Assembly: GCF_030067705.1 (NCBI RefSeq)
Contig: NZ_JASJEX010000004.1
Span: 1-64,000 of the forward strand
Length of the DNA stretch: 64,000 nt
Direction: 5' to 3'
From: Kribbibacterium absianum
GTDB lineage: Bacteria; Actinomycetota; Coriobacteriia; Coriobacteriales; Atopobiaceae
Translations under genes and position numbers: made by a program
Notes under the pieces: generated by a model
Seen by the model: only the letters and a program-made list of their open reading frames with translations
What the model was told of the DNA's origin: nothing
The model's database searches: none
Part shown: in pieces, positions 16,066 to 61,210 of the stretch
Layout: every line of letters begins with the position of its first letter
Position numbering within the stretch: the first letter of the stretch is position 1

Positions 16066-16155
16066 ATTCGCGGTGCGCCTTTGGCACGAGAAAGAAGTAT
16101 AGCGCCTCTCCCCCACCCCGCAAGTGCCAATCTCACGTTTTTTCGCGCCGCCCGT

Positions 16156-16231
16156 GGACGCTTCCGTCAAAGCGCTGTGTCCACGCTCCAATCGGCTGGA
16201 GCGTGGACATTTGGCTTTGACCGGAGCGTCC
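16156..16231. repeat. Family C long hairpin repeat, copy C1
   Basis: A single large inverted repeat. The left arm 16156-16190 (begins GGACGCTTCCGTCAAAGCG) pairs with the right arm at about 16197-16231, leaving a 6-nt loop. It is the simple form of the element that occurs as nested, tandem copies at 55789-56069 and 61041-61182. It lies between tRNA-Asn and the terminator of the YfcC carrier gene. Confidence 0.85.
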
Positions 16232-16274
16232 GCACTCTTGCGGGCACCCCGAAGAAGAGGGGCACCCTCGTGCC

Positions 16275-29906: not shown

Positions 29907-30902
29907 ATGGGCCTCACCCTGAACGACATCCCCGGTTTCTTCGTCGGCCACTGGACCGACCCGTCCGCAGCGACCGGCTGCACGGCCATCGTGTGCCCGG
30001 ACGGCGCCGTCGGCGGCGTGGACGTGGCGGGCGGCGCCCCGGCGACCCGCGAGACGGACCTGCTCAGACCCGAGGAGATGGTGCAGCAGCTGCACGCGGT
30101 GGTCCTCTCGGGGGGGTCGGCGTTCGGGCTCGCTGCGGCCGCGGGCGCCGCCAACGAGCTGGAGGCGCGCGGCATCGGCTTCGACATGCAGGTGTGCCGC
30201 GTGCCAATCGTGTCGAGCGCGTGCGTCTTCGACCTCGGTTTCGGCGATGCGGCCGTGCGCCCGGGCGAGGCCCAGGGGGCCGAGGCGGTGCGCGCCGCGC
30301 TCGACGGGACCGCGGACGTGACCGCGATGGGCAACGTGGGCGCAGGGACGGGCTGCACCGTCGGCAAGTTCGCCGGCCCCACCCAGTGCATGAAGGGCGG
30401 CCTCGGTTGGGCCGTGGAGCAAGAGGGGCCGCTTGTGGTGGGCGCGATCGCGGCGGTCAACGCGGTCGGCTCGGTGCGCGACCCCGAGACCGAGGAGTGG
30501 GTCGCCGGCGCACGGGTCGCCGGCGCCTCGCTCGACGTGATCCCCGACCCGCTCGGCGCCATCTCGGCGATGTTCTCACAGGGGGCGTCCCAAGTCACAG
30601 CCGGTGACGCACCGCTCCCCCGCAGCAACACGACTATCTCCTGCGTGGTCACCAACGCGCTGCTCTCGAAGGCCCAGTGCACGAAGGTGGCCCAGATGTG
30701 CGGCGACGCCTATGCGCGGTGCATCGTGCCGTCCCACACCACCAACGACGGCGACACGGTCTTCGTGATGGCGAACGGCCCCGTGCCGGCGCCGGAGGAC
30801 GTGGTGGGCATCGTTGCCCAGCGGGCGCTGGCGCGCGCCATCGTGGACGGCTGCCGCAGCGCGGAGACGCTCCTCGGGGTCCCGGGCGCCGCCTCGCGGT
30901 AG
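29907..30902 (+). CDS. P1 family peptidase (DmpA/NylC-like, self-processing)
   Basis: A 331-residue member of the N-terminal-nucleophile P1 family. These enzymes are made as a precursor that cleaves itself into two chains. The expected cleavage point is between Asn241 and Thr242 in RSNTTISCVVTN, by analogy with the Asn-Thr site of NylC, giving Thr242 as nucleophile. LSGGSAFGLAAAAG (about 65-80) and GNVGAGTGCTVGK (about 139-151) are family motifs. Known members are L-aminopeptidase/D-esterases or oligoamide hydrolases. No signal peptide. Two family A repeats begin 2 bp after the stop codon. Confidence 0.9.
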   Translation: MGLTLNDIPGFFVGHWTDPSAATGCTAIVCPDGAVGGVDVAGGAPATRETDLLRPEEMVQQLHAVVLSGGSAFGLAAAAGAANELEARGIGFDMQVCRVPIVSSACVFDLGFGDAAVRPGEAQGAEAVRAALDGTADVTAMGNVGAGTGCTVGKFAGPTQCMKGGLGWAVEQEGPLVVGAIAAVNAVGSVRDPETEEWVAGARVAGASLDVIPDPLGAISAMFSQGASQVTAGDAPLPRSNTTISCVVTNALLSKAQCTKVAQMCGDAYARCIVPSHTTNDGDTVFVMANGPVPAPEDVVGIVAQRALARAIVDGCRSAETLLGVPGAASR

Positions 30903-30904
30903 AC

Positions 30905-30956
30905 GTGCATTTGGGGACAGTCCCCAAATGCACAGGGGACAGTCCCCAAATGCACA
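30905..30956. repeat. Family A palindromes A1 (complete) and A2 (right half)
   Basis: A1 spans 30905-30933: a 14-bp arm GTGCATTTGGGGAC, a central A, and its perfect reverse complement. A2 spans 30935-30956 and lacks the left GTGCATTT. Both have A as centre on the plus strand. They start 2 bp after the P1 peptidase stop codon and end about 45 bp before the HAD phosphatase start, so they may act as a terminator hairpin. These are REP-like elements, see the RAYT gene at 31906-32658. Confidence 0.95.
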
Positions 30957-31002
30957 TTCCTGCTAGGGTTGATCTGGTCCGTCACGAGCAAGGGAGCCCC
31001 GC

Positions 31003-31842
31003 GTGTACAAACTCATCGCCAGCGACATGGACGAGACGTTCATCGGCCACGACAAGACCGTGCATCCGGGCAACCTCGAGGCGGCGCGCCGGCTTCAGGA
31101 GCAGGGCGGCCACTTCGTCGTTGCCACCGGGCGCCCGTTCTATAGCGTGCAGGGGACCTTAGCGCAGGTTGGCACGGCAGGGGATCCGAGCGAGGTCACC
31201 ATCGCGCTCAACGGCGGCACGGTGTACCGCAACGACGGAACCCTCATCGTCGGCCACCCGCTGTCGGGCGACGCGGCGCGGGCTCTTCTCGAGCAGGCTC
31301 AGCAGCGCGAGCTGTGTGCGCACGTGTACCTTGGCGACCGCACCCTGGTCACGAACGTGACCGAGGCTGAGCGGGCCTTTGTGGACGGACGCATGGAGAT
31401 CGTCGAGACGGGTTGGGAGGAGGCCTTCTCGGCCATTGACGTCGAGCCCGTGTACAAGGTGCTGTTCCACGATCTGGACGTGCCGTTCCTCCGCGCGGTC
31501 GAGGCGGAGCTGCGGCGCGACCTGCCGGAGCTGCTCGCGACGCTTGAGACGTCCTACTCGAGCGAGCGATACCTGGAGTTCAACCCGCTGGGCGTCGGCA
31601 AGGGGTCGGGGCTGCTCGAGGCCGCGAACGCGCTCGGTGTGGGGGTCGAGGAGACCGTGGCCGTGGGCGACTCGCTCAACGACCTCTCGATGCTCGAGGA
31701 CGCGGGCCTGTCCCTCGTGGTGAGCAACGTGTCCGAGGGCCTCGAGGCGGTCCTTCCCGAGAAGGTCCAGCGGCTCGAGTCCTCGTGCGATGACGCGGCC
31801 ATCGCCGAGGTCGTCGACCGCTTCTTCACAACGTGCCTGTAG
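31003..31842 (+). CDS. Cof-type HAD-IIB family phosphatase
   Basis: A 279-residue haloacid-dehalogenase-fold phosphatase. Motif I is DMDETFIG with Asp8 and Asp10; here the usual DLDGTL is altered. Motif II is VVATGRP, motif III is the Lys in GKGSGL, and motif IV is GDSLNDLSML. The cap is of type IIB, as in Cof and YbiV, which act on sugar phosphates and small phosphorylated metabolites. The GTG start at 31003 follows AGGGAG. The last base of its TAG stop codon is the first base of repeat A3. Confidence 0.9.
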   Translation: MYKLIASDMDETFIGHDKTVHPGNLEAARRLQEQGGHFVVATGRPFYSVQGTLAQVGTAGDPSEVTIALNGGTVYRNDGTLIVGHPLSGDAARALLEQAQQRELCAHVYLGDRTLVTNVTEAERAFVDGRMEIVETGWEEAFSAIDVEPVYKVLFHDLDVPFLRAVEAELRRDLPELLATLETSYSSERYLEFNPLGVGKGSGLLEAANALGVGVEETVAVGDSLNDLSMLEDAGLSLVVSNVSEGLEAVLPEKVQRLESSCDDAAIAEVVDRFFTTCL

Positions 31843-31901
31843 GGACAGTCCCCAAATGCACGTCTCTCGCATGTGCATTTGGGGACAGTCCCGTTTTGCA
31901 C
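31842..31901. repeat. Family A palindromes A3 (right part) and A4 (mosaic)
   Basis: A3 (31842-31861) is the right part of the element starting at GGGACAGTCCCC. A4 (31873-31901) has a left arm of the GTGCATTT subtype but a right arm GTTTTGCAC of the other subtype seen in A6, so its stem has a four-base internal mismatch. Both have A at the centre on the plus strand. A4 ends 4 bp from the RAYT stop codon; A3 begins inside the stop codon of the HAD gene. Confidence 0.92.
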
Positions 31902-31905
31902 GTTG

Positions 31906-32658
31906 TCACGCGCGGCCGATGATGCCGCGCCCAACCCCGGTGTGGCGTTCGATTTGCTTAGCCGTGAGACCGACCGCTTTAAGGTGCCGGAGCGCGGCGT
32001 CCCGCTCTTTTCGGCCGAGCTTCCCGATCTGCTCGAGCGGCCGGTCGCCAAGGAGCTCTCGAACGACAGCCGTGGCGTCCACGTCGGTCACGTGGGCTCG
32101 GAGGCCCTTCCGTAGCGCGGCGGTCTCTACGGCGCTTGGCATGATTTCGTGGAAGGCCCGGAATCCGTCCGGCCCTCCCAGCATCTCGAGCACGAGGTCG
32201 GGGCACACGAGTCCGGGCTGTCCCAGGTACTCTCGGTAGCTCGACCATGGCCAGTCGCAGTCCGGCGACAGCCCGGCCCGCACGGGGTTCTGGTGCACGT
32301 AGCGCACCGTGTTGAGAAGCTGCTCGTCGCTCTCAACGGGCACGACGTGCGGGCGATTCTGGTAGACGTGCCCCACATGCCCATGGAGCTCGTTGAACCG
32401 GGTCGCGTACGGGCCGGTTATGCGCGCCAAGAACCGATTGAGCGTATCGTGCGGATCCTCGACGACGAAGTGGAGGTGGTTGTCCATCAACACCCAGGCG
32501 AAGAGCCTCACGTCCCGCTCGTCGGCCAGCACCAGGCGCACACGGTTGAGGAACGCGAGCTTGTCCTCGTCGCCCTCGAAGATCGCGAGGCGCCCCACCC
32601 CGCGGCTCGTGACGTGATAGATTCCGGAACTCGAGCGACGCCGGCCGGTGCGTGGCAT
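31906..32658 (-). CDS. REP-associated tyrosine transposase (RAYT, Y1_Tnp/TnpA_REP family)
   Basis: A 250-residue single-strand DNA transposase of the IS200-like HUH superfamily. The metal-binding HUH motif is MDNHLHFVVE (His61, His63). The likely nucleophile is Tyr120 in VRYVHQNPVRAG, matching the Tyr of the E. coli TnpA_REP. WPWSSYREY and a C-terminal helix-turn-helix-like segment (residues 200-250) complete the family plan. RAYTs cut and join REP palindromes and are normally single-copy, vertically held genes. The start at 32658 (AAAGGAGG site) excludes the longer ORF. The gene is flanked by family A palindromes 4 bp after its stop and 33 bp before its start, which marks them as its targets. 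All catalytic residues are intact, so it is probably active. Confidence 0.93.
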   Translation of the reverse strand: MPRTGRRRSSSGIYHVTSRGVGRLAIFEGDEDKLAFLNRVRLVLADERDVRLFAWVLMDNHLHFVVEDPHDTLNRFLARITGPYATRFNELHGHVGHVYQNRPHVVPVESDEQLLNTVRYVHQNPVRAGLSPDCDWPWSSYREYLGQPGLVCPDLVLEMLGGPDGFRAFHEIMPSAVETAALRKGLRAHVTDVDATAVVRELLGDRPLEQIGKLGRKERDAALRHLKAVGLTAKQIERHTGVGRGIIGRA

Positions 32659-32691
32659 GGGTGCCTCCTTTGAGTGACGAAACGTGCATGT

Positions 32692-32720
32692 GTGCATTTG
32701 GGGACTGTCCCTAAATGCAC
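32692..32720. repeat. Family A palindrome A5
   Basis: A 29-bp palindrome, GTGCATTTGGGGAC with right arm GTCCCTAAATGCAC, one mismatch, centre T on the plus strand. It is therefore inverted relative to A1-A4. It lies 33 bp upstream of the RAYT start and one base after the glpK stop codon; extended by the flanking GAT, the element overlaps that stop codon. Confidence 0.95.
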
Positions 32721-32721
32721 A

Positions 32722-34224
32722 TCACGGGACGTCGTTGGGTTTGAAGGAGCGGCACGCGTCCACCGCGTGGATCCACTGGCGATAGCGCCGGTCCATCTCG
32801 GGCGCCGGCCGCTCGGGCTCGAAGACGCGCTCCAGCTCTGCGGAGAGGTCGCCCTCGGCCCAGAAGCCACAACCTAGGCCGGCCAGGTACGCCGCACCGA
32901 GCGCCGTCAGCTCGGTGAGCGAGAACCGCTCCACCGGAATCTGGCAGAGGTCCGCCTGGAACTGCAGGAGGAAGTCGTTGGCCGCCGCTCCCCCGTCCAC
33001 GCGAAGCATCTGCAGCGGCACGCCGGAGTCGCCCTCCATGGCCTCGAGCACGTCGCGGGCCTGGAACGCCATCGACTCGAGGGCCGCACGGACCAGCTGG
33101 TCGTGCGTCGTGCCAAGCGAGAGCCCGAGGATGCTCGCCCGCGCGCTCTCGTCCCAGAACGGCGCCCCCAGACCCACGAAGGCGGGCACGATGAACACGC
33201 CGCCCGAGGTGCCCGCACGCTGCGCCATCGCGGCCGTCTCGCCCACGTCCTCGATGAGCCCCAGGTTGTCGCGCAGCCACTTCATCAAGGAGCCGGACAC
33301 AAAAACGGAGCCCTCGAGCGCGTAGGTGGTGCGTCCGTCGCGGCGCCACGCGACCGTCGAGAGGAGGCCGTTGTTGGACCGCACGATGGACCCGCCGGTG
33401 TTCATCAGCAGGAAGCCGCCCGTGCCGTAGGTGTTCTTGGCCATGCCGGGCTCGAGGCACAGCTGACCGAAGAGCGCCGCCTGCTGGTCGCCGACGATCG
33501 AGCAGATGGGCACCTCCGCGCCAAAGAAGGCGAACGGCTGGGTCACGGCGAGCGCCCCCGAGGTGTCGACGATCCGTGGCAGCACGCAGCGCGGCACCCC
33601 AAAGGCCTCGAGCAGCTCCTCGTCCCAGCTGGTGGACGCGATGTCGCACAGCAGGGTCCGGGACGCGTTGGAGGCGTCCGTGACGTGTGCCGCGCCGCCA
33701 GTGAGCTTCCACACGAGCCACGTGTCCATGGTGCCGAAGAGCAGCTCGCCGGCCTCGGCGCGCTCGCGGGCCCCGGGGACGTTCTCGAGCAGCCACGCCA
33801 GTTTGGAAGCCGAGAAGTACGGGTCGATGCGGAGCCCGGTGCGCTCGCGAACGAGCGGCTCGAGCCCATCCGCCTTCCAGCGGTCGCAGATGTCGGCCGT
33901 CTGCCGCGACTGCCAGACGATTGCCGGAGCCACCGGGAGCCCGGTCTTCGCGTCCCAGAGAAGGCACGTCTCGCGCTGGTTCGAGATGCCGATCGCGGCG
34001 ATCTGCCCTGGGTCGGTGCCGGTCTCGTTGAGGACCTGCGCCACGACGGCCATCGTGTCGAGCCACGCCTGCGTTGCGTCCTGCTCGACCCACCCCGGCT
34101 GCCGGTACGAGAGCGCTCCCTCCTTTTGGGCGACGCCGGCCACGGCGCGGTCGTGGTCGAAGAGGATCGCACGGGACGAGGTGGTCCCGTGGTCAATGGC
34201 GAGGATCAAGCGCGGGTCAGCCAT
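32722..34224 (-). CDS. glpK: Glycerol kinase
   Basis: Phosphorylates glycerol to glycerol-3-phosphate with ATP. A 500-residue FGGY-family kinase with the N-terminal DHGTTSSRAILFD phosphate-binding loop and GISNQRET. The two FGGY signatures are replaced by their usual close variants. Start at 34224 (MADPRLILAID), with AGAAGGGA upstream; an extension of 20 codons would run through repeat A6. It is the last gene of a glycerol operon with two FAD oxidoreductases and a DUF1667 protein. Its TGA stop overlaps the extended end of repeat A5. Confidence 0.96.
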   Translation of the reverse strand: MADPRLILAIDHGTTSSRAILFDHDRAVAGVAQKEGALSYRQPGWVEQDATQAWLDTMAVVAQVLNETGTDPGQIAAIGISNQRETCLLWDAKTGLPVAPAIVWQSRQTADICDRWKADGLEPLVRERTGLRIDPYFSASKLAWLLENVPGARERAEAGELLFGTMDTWLVWKLTGGAAHVTDASNASRTLLCDIASTSWDEELLEAFGVPRCVLPRIVDTSGALAVTQPFAFFGAEVPICSIVGDQQAALFGQLCLEPGMAKNTYGTGGFLLMNTGGSIVRSNNGLLSTVAWRRDGRTTYALEGSVFVSGSLMKWLRDNLGLIEDVGETAAMAQRAGTSGGVFIVPAFVGLGAPFWDESARASILGLSLGTTHDQLVRAALESMAFQARDVLEAMEGDSGVPLQMLRVDGGAAANDFLLQFQADLCQIPVERFSLTELTALGAAYLAGLGCGFWAEGDLSAELERVFEPERPAPEMDRRYRQWIHAVDACRSFKPNDVP

Positions 34225-34237
34225 GCCGCGTCCCTTC

Positions 34238-34648
34238 TCATTTGCATGTTGATGTGCAAAACGGGACTGTCCCTGTTTGCACATCGACGGGCTTGGTCAC
34301 GACGACGTCCGCGCCGGTGCCGCACACGTTGGCGACGACCACGTCGCCGATGGCGAGCGGCGCGTCGACGACGGTCTCGGAGAGCGCACGGGCGACGTCG
34401 AGCACTGCGTCCTTTGGCACGTCCGGCACGGTCTTCACGCTGGTCACCGGCCACGCCCCGCCGCGCACGGCCACGGTCCCTGTCACCGTGCGGCGTGGGT
34501 CCGCCACCTCCGCGCGGGCATAGGCCTCGCCGCGCGAGCACGTGTTGCCCGAGACGCGCACGACGGTGCCGTCCTCCAGCACGGCCGAGAGCTGGCACCC
34601 GATGGGGCACCGGATGCAGGTGAGCTCGATGGTCTCAGCCACGGTCAC
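34238..34648 (-). CDS. DUF1667 protein with a repeat-derived C-terminus
   Basis: A 136-residue small cysteine protein, ITCIRCPIGCQL-like at the N-terminus (Cys11, Cys14, Cys18) plus Cys37, probably binding iron-sulfur or zinc. DUF1667 proteins commonly accompany GlpA/GlpB-type FAD oxidoreductases and glpK in anaerobes; they are thought to help electron transfer, but this is not proven. The natural domain appears to end near residue 121 (VVVTKPV). The last 15 residues (DVQTGTVPFCTSTCK) are encoded by repeat A6 and the bases after it. The start overlaps the stop of the preceding gene by 14 bp. Confidence 0.85.
   Translation of the reverse strand: MTVAETIELTCIRCPIGCQLSAVLEDGTVVRVSGNTCSRGEAYARAEVADPRRTVTGTVAVRGGAWPVTSVKTVPDVPKDAVLDVARALSETVVDAPLAIGDVVVANVCGTGADVVVTKPVDVQTGTVPFCTSTCK
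34251..34285. repeat. Family A palindrome A6, inside the 3' end of the DUF1667 gene
   Basis: Extended 35-bp form: GATGTGCAAAACGGGAC, centre T, then its near-complement ending TTTGCACATC. Arms are of the GTGCAAA subtype with an AC/CA mismatch. It is in the same orientation as A5, facing the RAYT. It is translated as the C-terminal tail of the DUF1667 protein and lies 26 bp upstream of the glpK start codon. Confidence 0.93.
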
Positions 34649-44886: not shown

Positions 44887-45567
44887 CTAGCAGCCATCGA
44901 GCATGTCCTCCATGGCCGTCCGGGCCCGCTCCTGCGCAGAGCGGGCCCTTTGTTTTGCCGAGCCAGGCTCGGGCGATTCCAGCGGCGCCCCGACGTGGAC
45001 GTCGAAACCCGGCCGCCGACGCAGAAGGCGGTTGAGGCAGGCGCGCCGGTGCTGCACGAGCGCGACCGGCACCACAGGCGCGCCGTTGCCGAGCGCGATG
45101 CGGAACGCGCCGTCCCGGAACGGCTGCAGCTCTGTGGCGTACGGAACCAGGTTGCCCTCCGGGAAGACCACGAGCGCGTTGCCCTCCTTGAGCACCTGCT
45201 TGCAGCGGTGCACCATGAAGCGCGCCTCCCCGATCGTCTCGCCGGTGAAGATCGTGCCAAGGGCCCGGACCACCGGGCCGTAGACGCGCGCCTCGCCGTT
45301 CTCGGCCAAGGCGAGGAACCGCGCCTCTGTCGGCGCGATGGCACAGGCCACCATGCAGGAGTCCAGGAGGCAGCAATGGTTGGCGACCACGACGCTGCCG
45401 CCAAACGTGTCCGGAGCACCGGGCTGTCGGACCACGCGCATGCCGAACCACAGGGAGCAATGGGCGCGCAGGATCGGGCGGACGAAGCGGTACAGGAGGC
45501 TCTGGTGGCGCTGCTGGCGCGGCGTGGGCTCCTCGAAGAGGCGGTCGCGCCGCTGCTGCGACGTCAT
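44887..45567 (-). CDS. 1-acyl-sn-glycerol-3-phosphate acyltransferase (PlsC family)
   Basis: A 226-residue PlsC-domain acyltransferase. The catalytic H(X4)D is VVANHCCLLDS, with block 3 FPEGNLVPY binding the acceptor phosphate. It starts at 45567, with ATGA overlap of the glycosyltransferase stop, so the two are translationally coupled. That pairing suggests that it acts in making or remodelling a glycolipid such as a lipoteichoic-acid anchor or phosphatidic acid; the exact acceptor is unknown. Confidence 0.88.
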   Translation of the reverse strand: MTSQQRRDRLFEEPTPRQQRHQSLLYRFVRPILRAHCSLWFGMRVVRQPGAPDTFGGSVVVANHCCLLDSCMVACAIAPTEARFLALAENGEARVYGPVVRALGTIFTGETIGEARFMVHRCKQVLKEGNALVVFPEGNLVPYATELQPFRDGAFRIALGNGAPVVPVALVQHRRACLNRLLRRRPGFDVHVGAPLESPEPGSAKQRARSAQERARTAMEDMLDGC

Positions 45568-46727
45568 GACGAGCGCCTCTCGTACCAGGCGCGGTCGTCC
45601 TCGATGGCGGCCTCCTCCATGGCCAGGAACTTCTCGACGCAGCGACCCACGCGCAGGCTCTCTGCCTCGGCCAGGTAGCGTCCGCGCCAGGCGGCCTGCT
45701 CCTCGGGGTGTTCGATCCACCAGTCCAGGCGCTCGGCCAGCGCGGCCGCGTCCTTCGCGGGGAACAGGGACCGCTCGGTGAGCGCGAAGGCCGCAGGCGC
45801 CGACAGAGGCGCCTCGCCGATGACGGGCACGCAACCGCAGGCAAAGGCCTCGATCACCGACATCGCCTCGATGTCCACTGTGGACGCGTGCACGTACAGG
45901 GCGCACCGGCGCAACTCCTCCACGAGCGCTTCCTGAGAGAGGAACCCGATGACCGGCGGGTTCGGCAGGCTCGCGCCGGCGCGGCGGAGTGCCCGCTCGC
46001 CCGGGCCGGTGCCAAAGATGTGGAGCTGGATGCGACCCGCGTGGCGCGAGCGGCGCACGGCCTCGATGATCGTGACCTGGTTCTTCTCGGGGGCGAGCCG
46101 CCCCACGGTGGCGATGTGCACCAGCCCCGCAGTGTCTGATGTGCATTTGGGGACAGTCCCCAAATGCACATCGGGTGTGAAACGGTCCGGGACGCCGTTG
46201 GAGATCACGTGCAAGGCGTTCGAGTACCCGTTGCGACGCAGGTCGCGGGCGATCATCTCGCTCGGGCAGTGGACGTGGCGCACGTGGTCATAGAGCTGGG
46301 CGCGGAACAGGCGGTGGACGCCGGCACAGAGCAGGGGCGCCTCCCCCATCCGCGCGTTGGACGTGACGTTCTGCGGCTGCAGGTGGAACGCCGCGGAGAC
46401 CGGGATCGACGCCGCCCGCGCCTGGCGCAACGCCTCGCGCTCGAGCGCGAACGGCAGGAACAGGTGCACCACGTCCACGCCGTCGATTGCCCGGGCCACC
46501 GCCTGCTTGTCCGGCTTTGCGAAGTGGAACCCGCAGGCGCGAGACACCGGCGTGACGACCGGGATGTGCCGCTCGTCCACCGCCAACGTGTCGGCGCCGG
46601 TCGCGGCCATGCCCAGGAGCCGGACCTCGTGGCCCTTGGCGCGCAGGGCGTCGGCGTAGCGGCGTGCCGTGAGCGAGGTGCCGTTGGAGCAGGTGGAGAG
46701 GTCGTCCATGACAAAGGCGATGCGCAC
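45564..46727 (-). CDS. GT4-family glycosyltransferase with an in-frame palindromic repeat
   Basis: A 387-residue GT-B glycosyltransferase. The N-terminal domain begins MRIAFVMDDLSTCSNGTSL; the C-terminal donor domain begins at HIATVGRLAPEKNQ and has the EX7E-type region DIEAMSVIEAFACG. The family is used for diacylglycerol glucosylation and similar steps, which fits the coupled PlsC gene. The start is GTG at 46727 with GAAGGGA upstream, rather than the ATG at 46754. Residues 186-197 (DVHLGTVPKCTS) are encoded by family A repeat A7. They lie in the linker between the two domains, where an insertion may be tolerated. Confidence 0.88.
   Translation of the reverse strand: MRIAFVMDDLSTCSNGTSLTARRYADALRAKGHEVRLLGMAATGADTLAVDERHIPVVTPVSRACGFHFAKPDKQAVARAIDGVDVVHLFLPFALEREALRQARAASIPVSAAFHLQPQNVTSNARMGEAPLLCAGVHRLFRAQLYDHVRHVHCPSEMIARDLRRNGYSNALHVISNGVPDRFTPDVHLGTVPKCTSDTAGLVHIATVGRLAPEKNQVTIIEAVRRSRHAGRIQLHIFGTGPGERALRRAGASLPNPPVIGFLSQEALVEELRRCALYVHASTVDIEAMSVIEAFACGCVPVIGEAPLSAPAAFALTERSLFPAKDAAALAERLDWWIEHPEEQAAWRGRYLAEAESLRVGRCVEKFLAMEEAAIEDDRAWYERRSS
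46138..46172. repeat. Family A palindrome A7, in frame inside the GT4 gene
   Basis: The most perfect copy: GATGTGCATTTGGGGAC, central A, and the exact reverse complement, 35 bp. On the coding strand it is read without a stop codon. It lies about 12 kb from A6 and the RAYT. Confidence 0.96.
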
Positions 46728-47244: not shown

Positions 47245-47317
47245 GTGAGACAGTTCTGTCTCTTTGGACTGTCCCACCGGGTCGGATGAGACAGTTCTGT
47301 CTCTTTGGACTGTCTCA
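47245..47317. repeat. Family B tandem palindromes B1 and B2
   Basis: Two near-identical copies at 47245-47277 and 47287-47317, each TGAGACAGTTCTGTCTCTTT then GGACTGTC(T/C)C. The ends TGAGACAGT and ACTGTCTCA are inverted and a second inverted repeat AGACAG-TT-CTGTCT is nested in the left end. B2 ends 5 bp before the pckA stop codon complement. The ACTGTC core resembles the core of family A, but the arms differ. Confidence 0.9.
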
Positions 47318-47322
47318 GCGGG

Positions 47323-48972
<1,650 letters not shown>

Positions 48973-55788: not shown

Positions 55789-56069
55789 GGACGCTTCGGA
55801 GAGAGCGAAATGTCCGCGGTTGGACGCTTCGGTCAAAGCGAAATGTCCACGCTCCAGCCAGGCGCAGCGTGGACAAACGGCTCTCTCCCGAGCGTCCGGG
55901 CGCGGTATCGCCTGCCACCCGTGGTCGGAACCCGACGGGCGCGGACTCATCGCCGGCGCCGGGCACACCCGTCAAAGCGAAATGTCCACGCTCCAGCCGA
56001 TCGGAGCGTGGACAAATGGCTCTCTCCCAAGCGTCCAGACGTGGACAAATGGCTCTCTCCCAAGCGTCC
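55789..56069. repeat. Family C repeats, composite locus C2
   Basis: Nested and tandem copies of the arm GGACGCTTCGG(AGAGA/TCAAA)GCG. Outer left arm 55789-55815, inner left arm from 55822, inner right arm ending at 55897. Then follow a 73-bp spacer, a second inner hairpin at 55971-56036 whose left end is truncated, and a lone right arm at 56043-56069. It ends 7 bp from the stop codon of the ABC exporter gene. Confidence 0.88.
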
Positions 56070-56076
56070 GGAGGCG

Positions 56077-57888
56077 TTAGTCGCAGTTGGCGAATTGAGC
56101 GTTATAGAGTTCCGCGTAGAAGCCGTTCCTCTCGAGCAGCTCCCCGTGCGTGCCCTTCTCGACCACGTTGCCGTCGCGCATCACGAGGATCAGGTCCGCG
56201 TTGCGGATCGTGCTCAAGCGGTGCGCCACCACGAAGCTCGTGCGCCCCTCCATCAGCCGGTCCATCGCCTCCTGGATCAACACCTCGGTACGGGTGTCCA
56301 CATTGCTCGTCGCCTCGTCCAGGATCAGCACCGGGCGGTCGGCCAGCACGGCGCGGGCGATTGTCAGCAGCTGCCGCTGGCCTTGGCTCACGTTGCTCGC
56401 CTCCTCGTTGATCCGGAAGTCGTAGCCGCCGGCCAGCGTGTGGATGAAGTGGTCGCACCGCGCGATCCTCGCGGCCTCCTCCACCTCCTCGTCGGTGGCG
56501 TCGAGGCGCCCGTAGCGGATGTTCTCGCGAATCGTGCCCTCGAAGAGCCACGTGTCCTGCAGCACCATCCCGAACTGCCCACGCAGCTCGCCCCGCTCGT
56601 AGTCGCGCACGTCCTCGCCGTCCACGAGCACGCGCCCGGAGCCCACGTCATAGAAGCGCATCATGAGCTTCATCAGCGTGGTCTTGCCGGCGCCAGTGGG
56701 CCCCACGATGGCGACCGTCTGGCCCGGCCTCACGTCGCACGAGAAGTCATGAATCACGGTCTGGCCGGGCAGGTAGCCAAAGTCGACGTCCTCGAACCGA
56801 ACCGCGCCCGGACGCGCCCCGGGCGTCTCGGGACGTGCGGGCTCCGACTCGCTCGGCGCGCCCAGGAACTCGAAGATGCGCTCGGCCGCCGCGGCCATGG
56901 CCTGGAGCTGTGCGGAGACGTTGGCCAGCTGGGTGATCGGCGACGTGAAGTTCTGCACGTACTGCATGAACGCCTGGATGTCGCCGATGGTGATCGACCC
57001 GCCCGCCGCGAGCCCGGCGCCCACGATGACCACGGCCGCGTAGCCCATGTTGGACACGAAGTTCATGAGCGGCTGCATGATGCCGCCATAGAACTGGCTC
57101 TTCCAAGCACTGTCGTACAGGTCGTCGTTGGCGCGGTCGAACTCCGTCGCGCTCTGCTCGCCGCGATCGAAGACCTGGATCACGGACTGGCCGCCGAAGT
57201 CCTCCTCGACGATGCCGTTGACCACGCCCAACTCGTTCTGCTGGGCCAAGAAGTAGCGCTGGGAGAAGCGCACGACGACGAGCACGATCACGAGGGCCAC
57301 CGGCAGCGTGAGCAGCGTCACGCCGGCCAGGACCGGGCTGATGGCGAACATCATGACCGTGACGCCGATGACCTGGGTGACGCACGTGATCACCTGCGTG
57401 ATGGCCTGGTTCAGCGACTGGCCGAGCGTGTCGACGTCGTTCGTGATGCGGGAGAGCACGTCGCCCTTGGAGTGGGTCTCGAAGTAGCCCATCGGCACCT
57501 CGGCGATCTTGGCCGCGATGTCGGCCCGCAGGCGGAAGGTGATCCTCTGGGTCACCCCGGTCATGATGAGCCCTTGCACGAACTGCGCGCCGCAGCTGCA
57601 CACGTACAGGCCGACGAGCACGAGCAGCACGCGGGCGATGCCGTCGAAGTCGATGCCGCCCGTCCCCTGCACCATGTTCACGAGGCCGTCGAAGAGGAGC
57701 GTCGTGGCCTGGCCGAGGATGTCCGGGCCGAGCACGCTGAGCACGACGGACACGATGGCGAACGCGAGCGAGAAGCAGATGCCCACAAGGTGCGGCCTGA
57801 CGTAGCCAAGCAGCGCGGCCATCGTGCCCTTGAAGTCCTTTGCCTTTTCTGTCGTGCGGCGACGGCCGCCAGGTCCCATCGGCGGCAT
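56077..57888 (-). CDS. ABC exporter half-transporter (MdlB-like)
   Basis: A 603-residue membrane-ATPase half-transporter. Six hydrophobic segments occupy about 30-330. The ATPase has Walker A GPTGAGKTTLMK, signature NVSQGQRQLL and Walker B PVLILDEATSNVD. The signature begins VSQGQ in place of LSGGQ, a frequent variant in the second half of heterodimers. It begins one base into the stop of the partner gene (TGATG), so the two are co-translated and should form a heterodimer. It is probably a multidrug or peptide exporter under the MarR regulator. Confidence 0.93.
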   Translation of the reverse strand: MPPMGPGGRRRTTEKAKDFKGTMAALLGYVRPHLVGICFSLAFAIVSVVLSVLGPDILGQATTLLFDGLVNMVQGTGGIDFDGIARVLLVLVGLYVCSCGAQFVQGLIMTGVTQRITFRLRADIAAKIAEVPMGYFETHSKGDVLSRITNDVDTLGQSLNQAITQVITCVTQVIGVTVMMFAISPVLAGVTLLTLPVALVIVLVVVRFSQRYFLAQQNELGVVNGIVEEDFGGQSVIQVFDRGEQSATEFDRANDDLYDSAWKSQFYGGIMQPLMNFVSNMGYAAVVIVGAGLAAGGSITIGDIQAFMQYVQNFTSPITQLANVSAQLQAMAAAAERIFEFLGAPSESEPARPETPGARPGAVRFEDVDFGYLPGQTVIHDFSCDVRPGQTVAIVGPTGAGKTTLMKLMMRFYDVGSGRVLVDGEDVRDYERGELRGQFGMVLQDTWLFEGTIRENIRYGRLDATDEEVEEAARIARCDHFIHTLAGGYDFRINEEASNVSQGQRQLLTIARAVLADRPVLILDEATSNVDTRTEVLIQEAMDRLMEGRTSFVVAHRLSTIRNADLILVMRDGNVVEKGTHGELLERNGFYAELYNAQFANCD

Positions 57889-60950: not shown

Positions 60951-61040
60951 TTTTTTGATCAGCACCCATCCTACCCCTAAACCAAGGGACGAGTCGTGAA
61001 TCGTTCGGGTGTAACCCAGTTCGCGCACAACCTAACCGTT

Positions 61041-61182
61041 GGACGCTTCGGAGAGAACGAAATGTCCACGGTTGGACGCTTCGGTCAAAGCGATTTGTCC
61101 ACGCTCCAGCCGATCGGAGCGTGGACAAACGGCTCTCTCCGAAGCGTCCAGGTGCGGACAAACGGCTCTCTCCCAAGCGTCC
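61041..61182. repeat. Family C repeat, nested double palindrome C3
   Basis: A symmetrical 142-bp structure. Outer left arm 61041-61067 and outer right arm 61156-61182 (27 bp each) enclose an inner left arm 61074-61107 and inner right arm 61116-61149 (34 bp each) around an 8-bp centre. Spacers of 6 bp separate the outer and inner arms on each side. All four arms share GGACGCTT...TGTCC. It can form two-layer hairpins or a cruciform. It lies 119 bp upstream of marR. Confidence 0.92.
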
Positions 61183-61210
61183 AGGGGTGCGATAACGATG
61201 CCGAAAGCCA

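Follow-up and report, generated by a model that had tools for sequence, protein, structure and literature searches.

Palindrome in the GT4 gene

The DNA analyzed, a 64,000-nt stretch of the Kribbibacterium absianum genome (referred to here as the window), contains a glycosyltransferase gene, an overlapping acyltransferase gene, and a short palindrome lying wholly within the former, as follows:

45564–46727, minus strand: GT4-family glycosyltransferase of 387 amino acids plus stop (Pfam, ortholog alignments, AlphaFold, and Foldseek)
44887–45567, minus strand: PlsC-type acyltransferase (Pfam PF01553), overlapping the GT4 gene by 4 nt and kept beside it in relatives (synteny)
46138–46172, no strand assigned: 35-bp REP-like palindrome inside the GT4 gene, with a minus-strand reading of DVHLGTVPKCTS plus one further base

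The product of the GT4 gene matched the Pfam domains Glycos_transf_1 (73 bits) and Glyco_transf_4 (65 bits), and its predicted structure matched the GT-B fold GT4 enzymes BshA, PimA, and MshA in Foldseek, which together place it among the GT4 enzymes of that fold. A GT4 gene followed by a PlsC-type acyltransferase gene is conserved in Atopobiaceae-like and Clostridia genomes, and this conservation makes the orthology of the GT4 gene firm. In one relative the two are fused as a single open reading frame (ORF) (L019 1501–2727), which suggests that both act in one glycolipid pathway.

The palindrome, GATGTGCATTTGGGGACAGTCCCCAAATGCACATC, consists of GATGTGCATTTGGGGAC-A-GTCCCCAAATGCACATC and is perfect, with 17-bp arms around a 1-nt center. 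No other perfect palindrome in the window with a loop of 0 or 1 nt is as long, and in 20 mononucleotide shuffles of the window the longest arms were 8 to 12 bp versus 17 bp here. All 35 bp recur identically on another contig, at G000:C3:412092, and four other copies of the family to which it belongs differ from it by one base. The first-pass annotation had named it the most perfect copy, but genome-wide the copies at C3:412092 and C2:388761 surpass it, with arms extended to 26 bp and 21 bp, respectively. The same annotation proposed a 17-bp hairpin in the mRNA. A hairpin in the middle of the message is indeed predicted, but in the RNA fold 16 bases pair on either side of a 3-nt loop (−26.8 kcal/mol when the palindrome is folded alone), and the local folding z-score of its 111-nt context is −3.55.

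The palindrome is translated. It encodes residues 186 to 197 of the protein, DVHLGTVPKCTS, and the conserved HIATVGRLAPEKNQ starts at residue 204; the frame and the motifs on both sides of the peptide align colinearly with orthologs. Thus, the earlier observations that the palindrome is read in frame within an intact ORF, that it occupies the interdomain linker before HIATVGRLAPEKNQ, and that the downstream motifs are preserved all held. In the AlphaFold model (mean pLDDT, 91), pLDDT falls below 50 only at residues 188 to 196, within the palindrome peptide, and this segment lies at the domain boundary between the strands at residues 171 to 174 and 203 to 208. Judged from the predicted model, the GT4 interdomain loop is a permissive site. 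The codons contributed by the palindrome have a GC3 of 50%, versus 92% for the GT4 gene.

A dispersed, lineage-specific palindrome family

A search of the 2.18-Mb genome with a half-site pattern returned 77 matches, versus 0 for the reversed control, and merging of both halves and the arm variants gave 67 palindromes of 35 bp. The position profile of these 67 sites is conserved exactly from −17 to +17, with nothing beyond. At position 6 the commonest form of the family carries an A-C mismatch, which would give the hairpin from one strand a G-U wobble; the GT4 copy is perfect there. None of the 139 remaining genomes of the taxonomic family matched the half-site pattern, and related palindromes, few in number, turned up in just 4 of the 397 remaining genomes of the class when a relaxed full-length pattern was used; by these searches the family is lineage specific, essentially belonging to one species. 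Relative to the literature searched, both the family sequence and the host lineage appear to be new.

Target-site duplications were looked for at the palindromes and, as a rule, were not found. The matches listed for a degenerate peptide pattern, which covered older, decayed in-gene copies, were the known palindromes and a decayed palindromic site at C3:408400. In REPINs, two inverted REP units with a short spacer make up the mobile unit; here several doublets occur, with center spacings of 22 to 45 nt, but most copies, including that in the GT4 gene, are single palindromes. One overlapping pair lies in the window:

30902–30958, no strand assigned: two overlapping family palindromes, intergenic

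At G000:C3:412092, C1:199304, and C1:282346, palindromes are nested in longer inverted repeats of the flanks (such as GCGCGCC...GGCGCGC and AGCT...AGCT), and they look as if they had been inserted into a terminator stem or been extended by one. The window contains two other repeats. One, about 117 nt long, is dispersed, with copies in both direct and inverted orientation (55789–56077, 61035–61190, and 16148–16232). The other, at 47246–47324, is a second palindromic repeat, part of which is GGACTGTCC-like, present as a tandem pair of 38-nt copies (TGAGACAGTTCTGTCTC...).

Placement of the copies relative to genes

Three known genes seeded the codon-usage model with which genes were called in the stretches of DNA fetched around the palindromes. 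Fifty-five of the 67 palindromes were intergenic, 8 overlapped a gene end, and 4 lay inside an ORF, 3 of the last within about 50 bp of the ORF 3′ end; the GT4 copy alone lies deep within a gene, and the other 66 are between genes or at or near their ends. Because 84% of the fetched DNA is coding, random placement would put about 56 of the 67 in genes (binomial). For 51 palindromes a gene 3′ end was no more than 50 nt away (51/67, versus 22% of random intergenic positions), and only three lay between divergent genes. Five genes receive their stop codon and last residues (C-I-stop or C-L-stop) from a palindrome, at G000:C1:37706, C2:65116, C2:87176, and C2:424794 and at 31830–31864 of the window.

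A candidate mobilizer

A gene resembling those of REP-associated tyrosine transposases (RAYTs) lies in the same window and has family palindromes at both borders:

31909–32658, minus strand: RAYT-like (Y1_Tnp) gene, PF01797
31830–31864, no strand assigned: family palindrome carrying the stop codon of the HAD-type gene at 31003–31842
31870–31904, no strand assigned: family palindrome forming a doublet with the preceding one, at the 3′ border of the RAYT-like gene
32689–32723, no strand assigned: family palindrome at the 5′ border of the RAYT-like gene

The product scored 69.8 bits against NCBIfam NF047646, under the cut-off of 80. The genome has five Y1_Tnp genes, for all of which the best NCBIfam match is the REP-associated tyrosine transposase model, below the cut-off, and only the gene at 31909–32658 is bordered by a family palindrome. 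The GGGACNGTCCC palindrome was absent from the fetched flanks of seven RAYT homologs from other genera (44 to 45% identical), and a literature search yielded no report pairing RAYT with Coriobacteria. The copy number and the adjacent RAYT-like gene suggest that the palindrome is mobile. The putative pairing of transposase and palindrome is supported by one locus, and the gene at 31909–32658 is probably the mobilizer of the family.

Orthologous linkers

The linker was measured between SNGV and TVGR and compared with 26 other distinct orthologous linkers from Atopobiaceae and Clostridia. None of the 26 contained the palindrome peptide, and the refuting case named in the first-pass annotation, a distant ortholog with the same peptide but no DNA palindrome, was looked for and not found. 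The linker has 27 residues in K. absianum and 19 to 23 in most orthologs (22 in L047, for example), with exceptions of 27 residues in one unrelated case and 45 in one genus; thus, the length of the GT4 loop is naturally variable among relatives, from 19 to 45 residues. In the alignment with the closest ortholog, L012 (63% identical), in which the flanking VPxxFxP and GLVHh motifs align, 12 residues stand where 8 stood.

The earlier proposal that a mobile palindrome had become a peptide insertion therefore stands insofar as a copy of a dispersed family is translated in the interdomain linker, but not as a simple insertion of 12 residues. A clean 12-residue insertion was rejected because the linker has 27 residues versus 19 to 23 and because the 35-bp length is not divisible by 3. 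Since the linker is only 4 to 8 residues longer than that of most orthologs, part of the old linker seems to have been replaced; the sequences point to a net gain of 4 to 8 residues, with about 4 to 8 replaced. With the closest ortholog only 63% identical, we infer the pre-insertion linker from this comparison.

Reading frame and C-terminal tails

Neither strand of the element has a stop in the frame read in the GT4 gene (DVxxGTVPxCT), whether the form is common or perfect; of the two remaining frames, one is interrupted by a stop on each strand of the common form. Three proteins have C-terminal tails translated in the GT4 frame:

34238–34648: gene for a DUF1667 protein
34251–34285, no strand assigned: family palindrome with the AAAC/GTTT arm variant, encoding DVQTGTVPFCTSTCK, the C-terminal tail of the DUF1667 protein
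L084 2008–3258: gene for a DUF815 AAA protein
L101 2965–4275: gene for a PapA_C-like protein

The tail encoded at L084, DVHLGTNARCMIDVQAGTVPVCTL, resembles two consecutive units. The lack of stops in this frame suffices to explain why it is shared without invoking a function of the peptide. We consider it unlikely that this symmetric family without a tag, which would have its own RAYT, is repeatedly added to proteins through its stop-free frame and could be kept for function. In that case, the element would act as a recurrent supplier of new peptide segments; the internal loop insertion and the three C-terminal tails, all from one genome, share the frame.

Origin and fate of the insertion

The reading that we consider very probable is that a nonautonomous REP-like element, probably moved by a RAYT, replaced some 4 to 8 codons of the GT4 loop and is tolerated there, most likely with neutral or nearly neutral effect. 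The palindrome would be one copy of this element, mobilized by the RAYT-like transposase encoded 13.5 kb away, and would have landed in the codons for the loop joining the two Rossmann domains. Roughly 4 to 8 codons of the old loop would have been swapped out while the frame stayed open, and selection would tolerate the insertion, with little or no effect on the enzyme. Such tolerance is expected because the loop is unstructured and naturally variable in length.

It is very unlikely that the insertion was instead domesticated, the peptide or the hairpin being kept as useful, for example, by pausing ribosomes to aid folding at the domain boundary or by tuning the hinge. A strong hairpin at a domain boundary would suit such a role, and the only deep in-gene copy of the family must have passed strong selection; nevertheless, the orthologs manage without the peptide, the length of their loops is free, and the sequence, available from one genome only, gives no sign that the peptide is conserved.

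Scarcely any probability attaches to an ancestral linker that chance or templated repair (quasi-palindrome correction) made palindromic, with no insertion of a dispersed element. In the closest ortholog, L012, the corresponding linker contains a perfect palindrome of 26 bp (G020:C1:1544230–1544255), so palindromes can form here in GC-rich codons. However, that palindrome is single copy in its genome and unrelated in sequence, and arms of its type arise in 16 of 400 synonymous shuffles (4%), whereas the GT4 palindrome shares all 35 bp with the copy at C3:412092 and has a GC3 unlike that of its host gene. A convergent palindrome insertion in the L012 linker was likewise set aside, since that palindrome is single copy and is explained by codon composition. 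Equally improbable is an artifact, either a misjoin at a repeat that brought the palindrome into the gene or an ORF that is not translated: short repeats can cause misassembly, but 35 bp is short relative to usual read lengths, both flanks are colinear and in the same frame of the same orthologous gene, and the genome is assembled in 7 contigs with 99.8% completeness.

The tolerated REP-like insertion is a well-documented example, from an Atopobiaceae-like bacterium, of short selfish DNA that has been incorporated into a protein, and a probable cognate transposase is encoded nearby. It reveals a tolerated site, an unstructured interdomain loop that was already variable in length, and does not overturn prior knowledge.

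Comparison with known systems

REPs are palindromes of 20 to 50 nt that occur in tens of copies, intergenically and near gene 3′ ends, in association with RAYTs, also named TnpA-REP (PMC3733652, PMC3116915). The K. absianum family resembles REP/REPIN and RAYT systems in palindrome size, in its tens of copies, in its intergenic location near 3′ ends (55 intergenic, 11 at or near gene ends, and 1 deep inside a gene, as befits a short, dispersed, mainly intergenic palindrome), in its doublets, and in its tandem and convergent gene contexts. As in those systems, a RAYT-like gene (31909–32658, with an NCBIfam RAYT match below the cut-off) is bordered by family copies. REPs with a GTAG or CGTC tetranucleotide at one end differ: the 67-site profile contains no such tag, and the K. 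absianum family is conserved symmetrically to ±17 and found in essentially one species. The family is called REP-like because this one-sided tag is missing. A point of similarity is that perfect-palindrome REPs with group 3 TnpA-REP have already been described (PMC8266576).

Some REPs lie wholly inside ORFs and are read through in frame, and some give flanking ORFs their TAG stops (PMC3733652, 2013). The K. absianum family likewise has an in-frame copy within an ORF and palindromes that supply stop codons; it differs from the intragenic REPs of that report in its new host lineage, its new repeat sequence, its single deep copy, and the glycosyltransferase linker in which that copy lies. The palindromic elements of Rickettsia (Ogata and colleagues 2000, 2002; reviewed in PMC10969869), given there as about 150 bp long, provide in-frame peptide inserts in many genes at sites compatible with the fold and function of the protein. 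The GT4 insertion is similar, being a mobile palindrome whose in-frame translation yields a peptide at a fold-compatible site, but the element is 35 bp long and only 1 of 67 palindromes lies deep inside an ORF, which by description sets it apart from elements inserted in frame in many ORFs. The in-frame insertion of a REP-like element into a flexible interdomain loop is genuine, and it is an event of a kind already known from intragenic REPs and from the Rickettsia palindromic elements (PMC3733652; PMC10969869).
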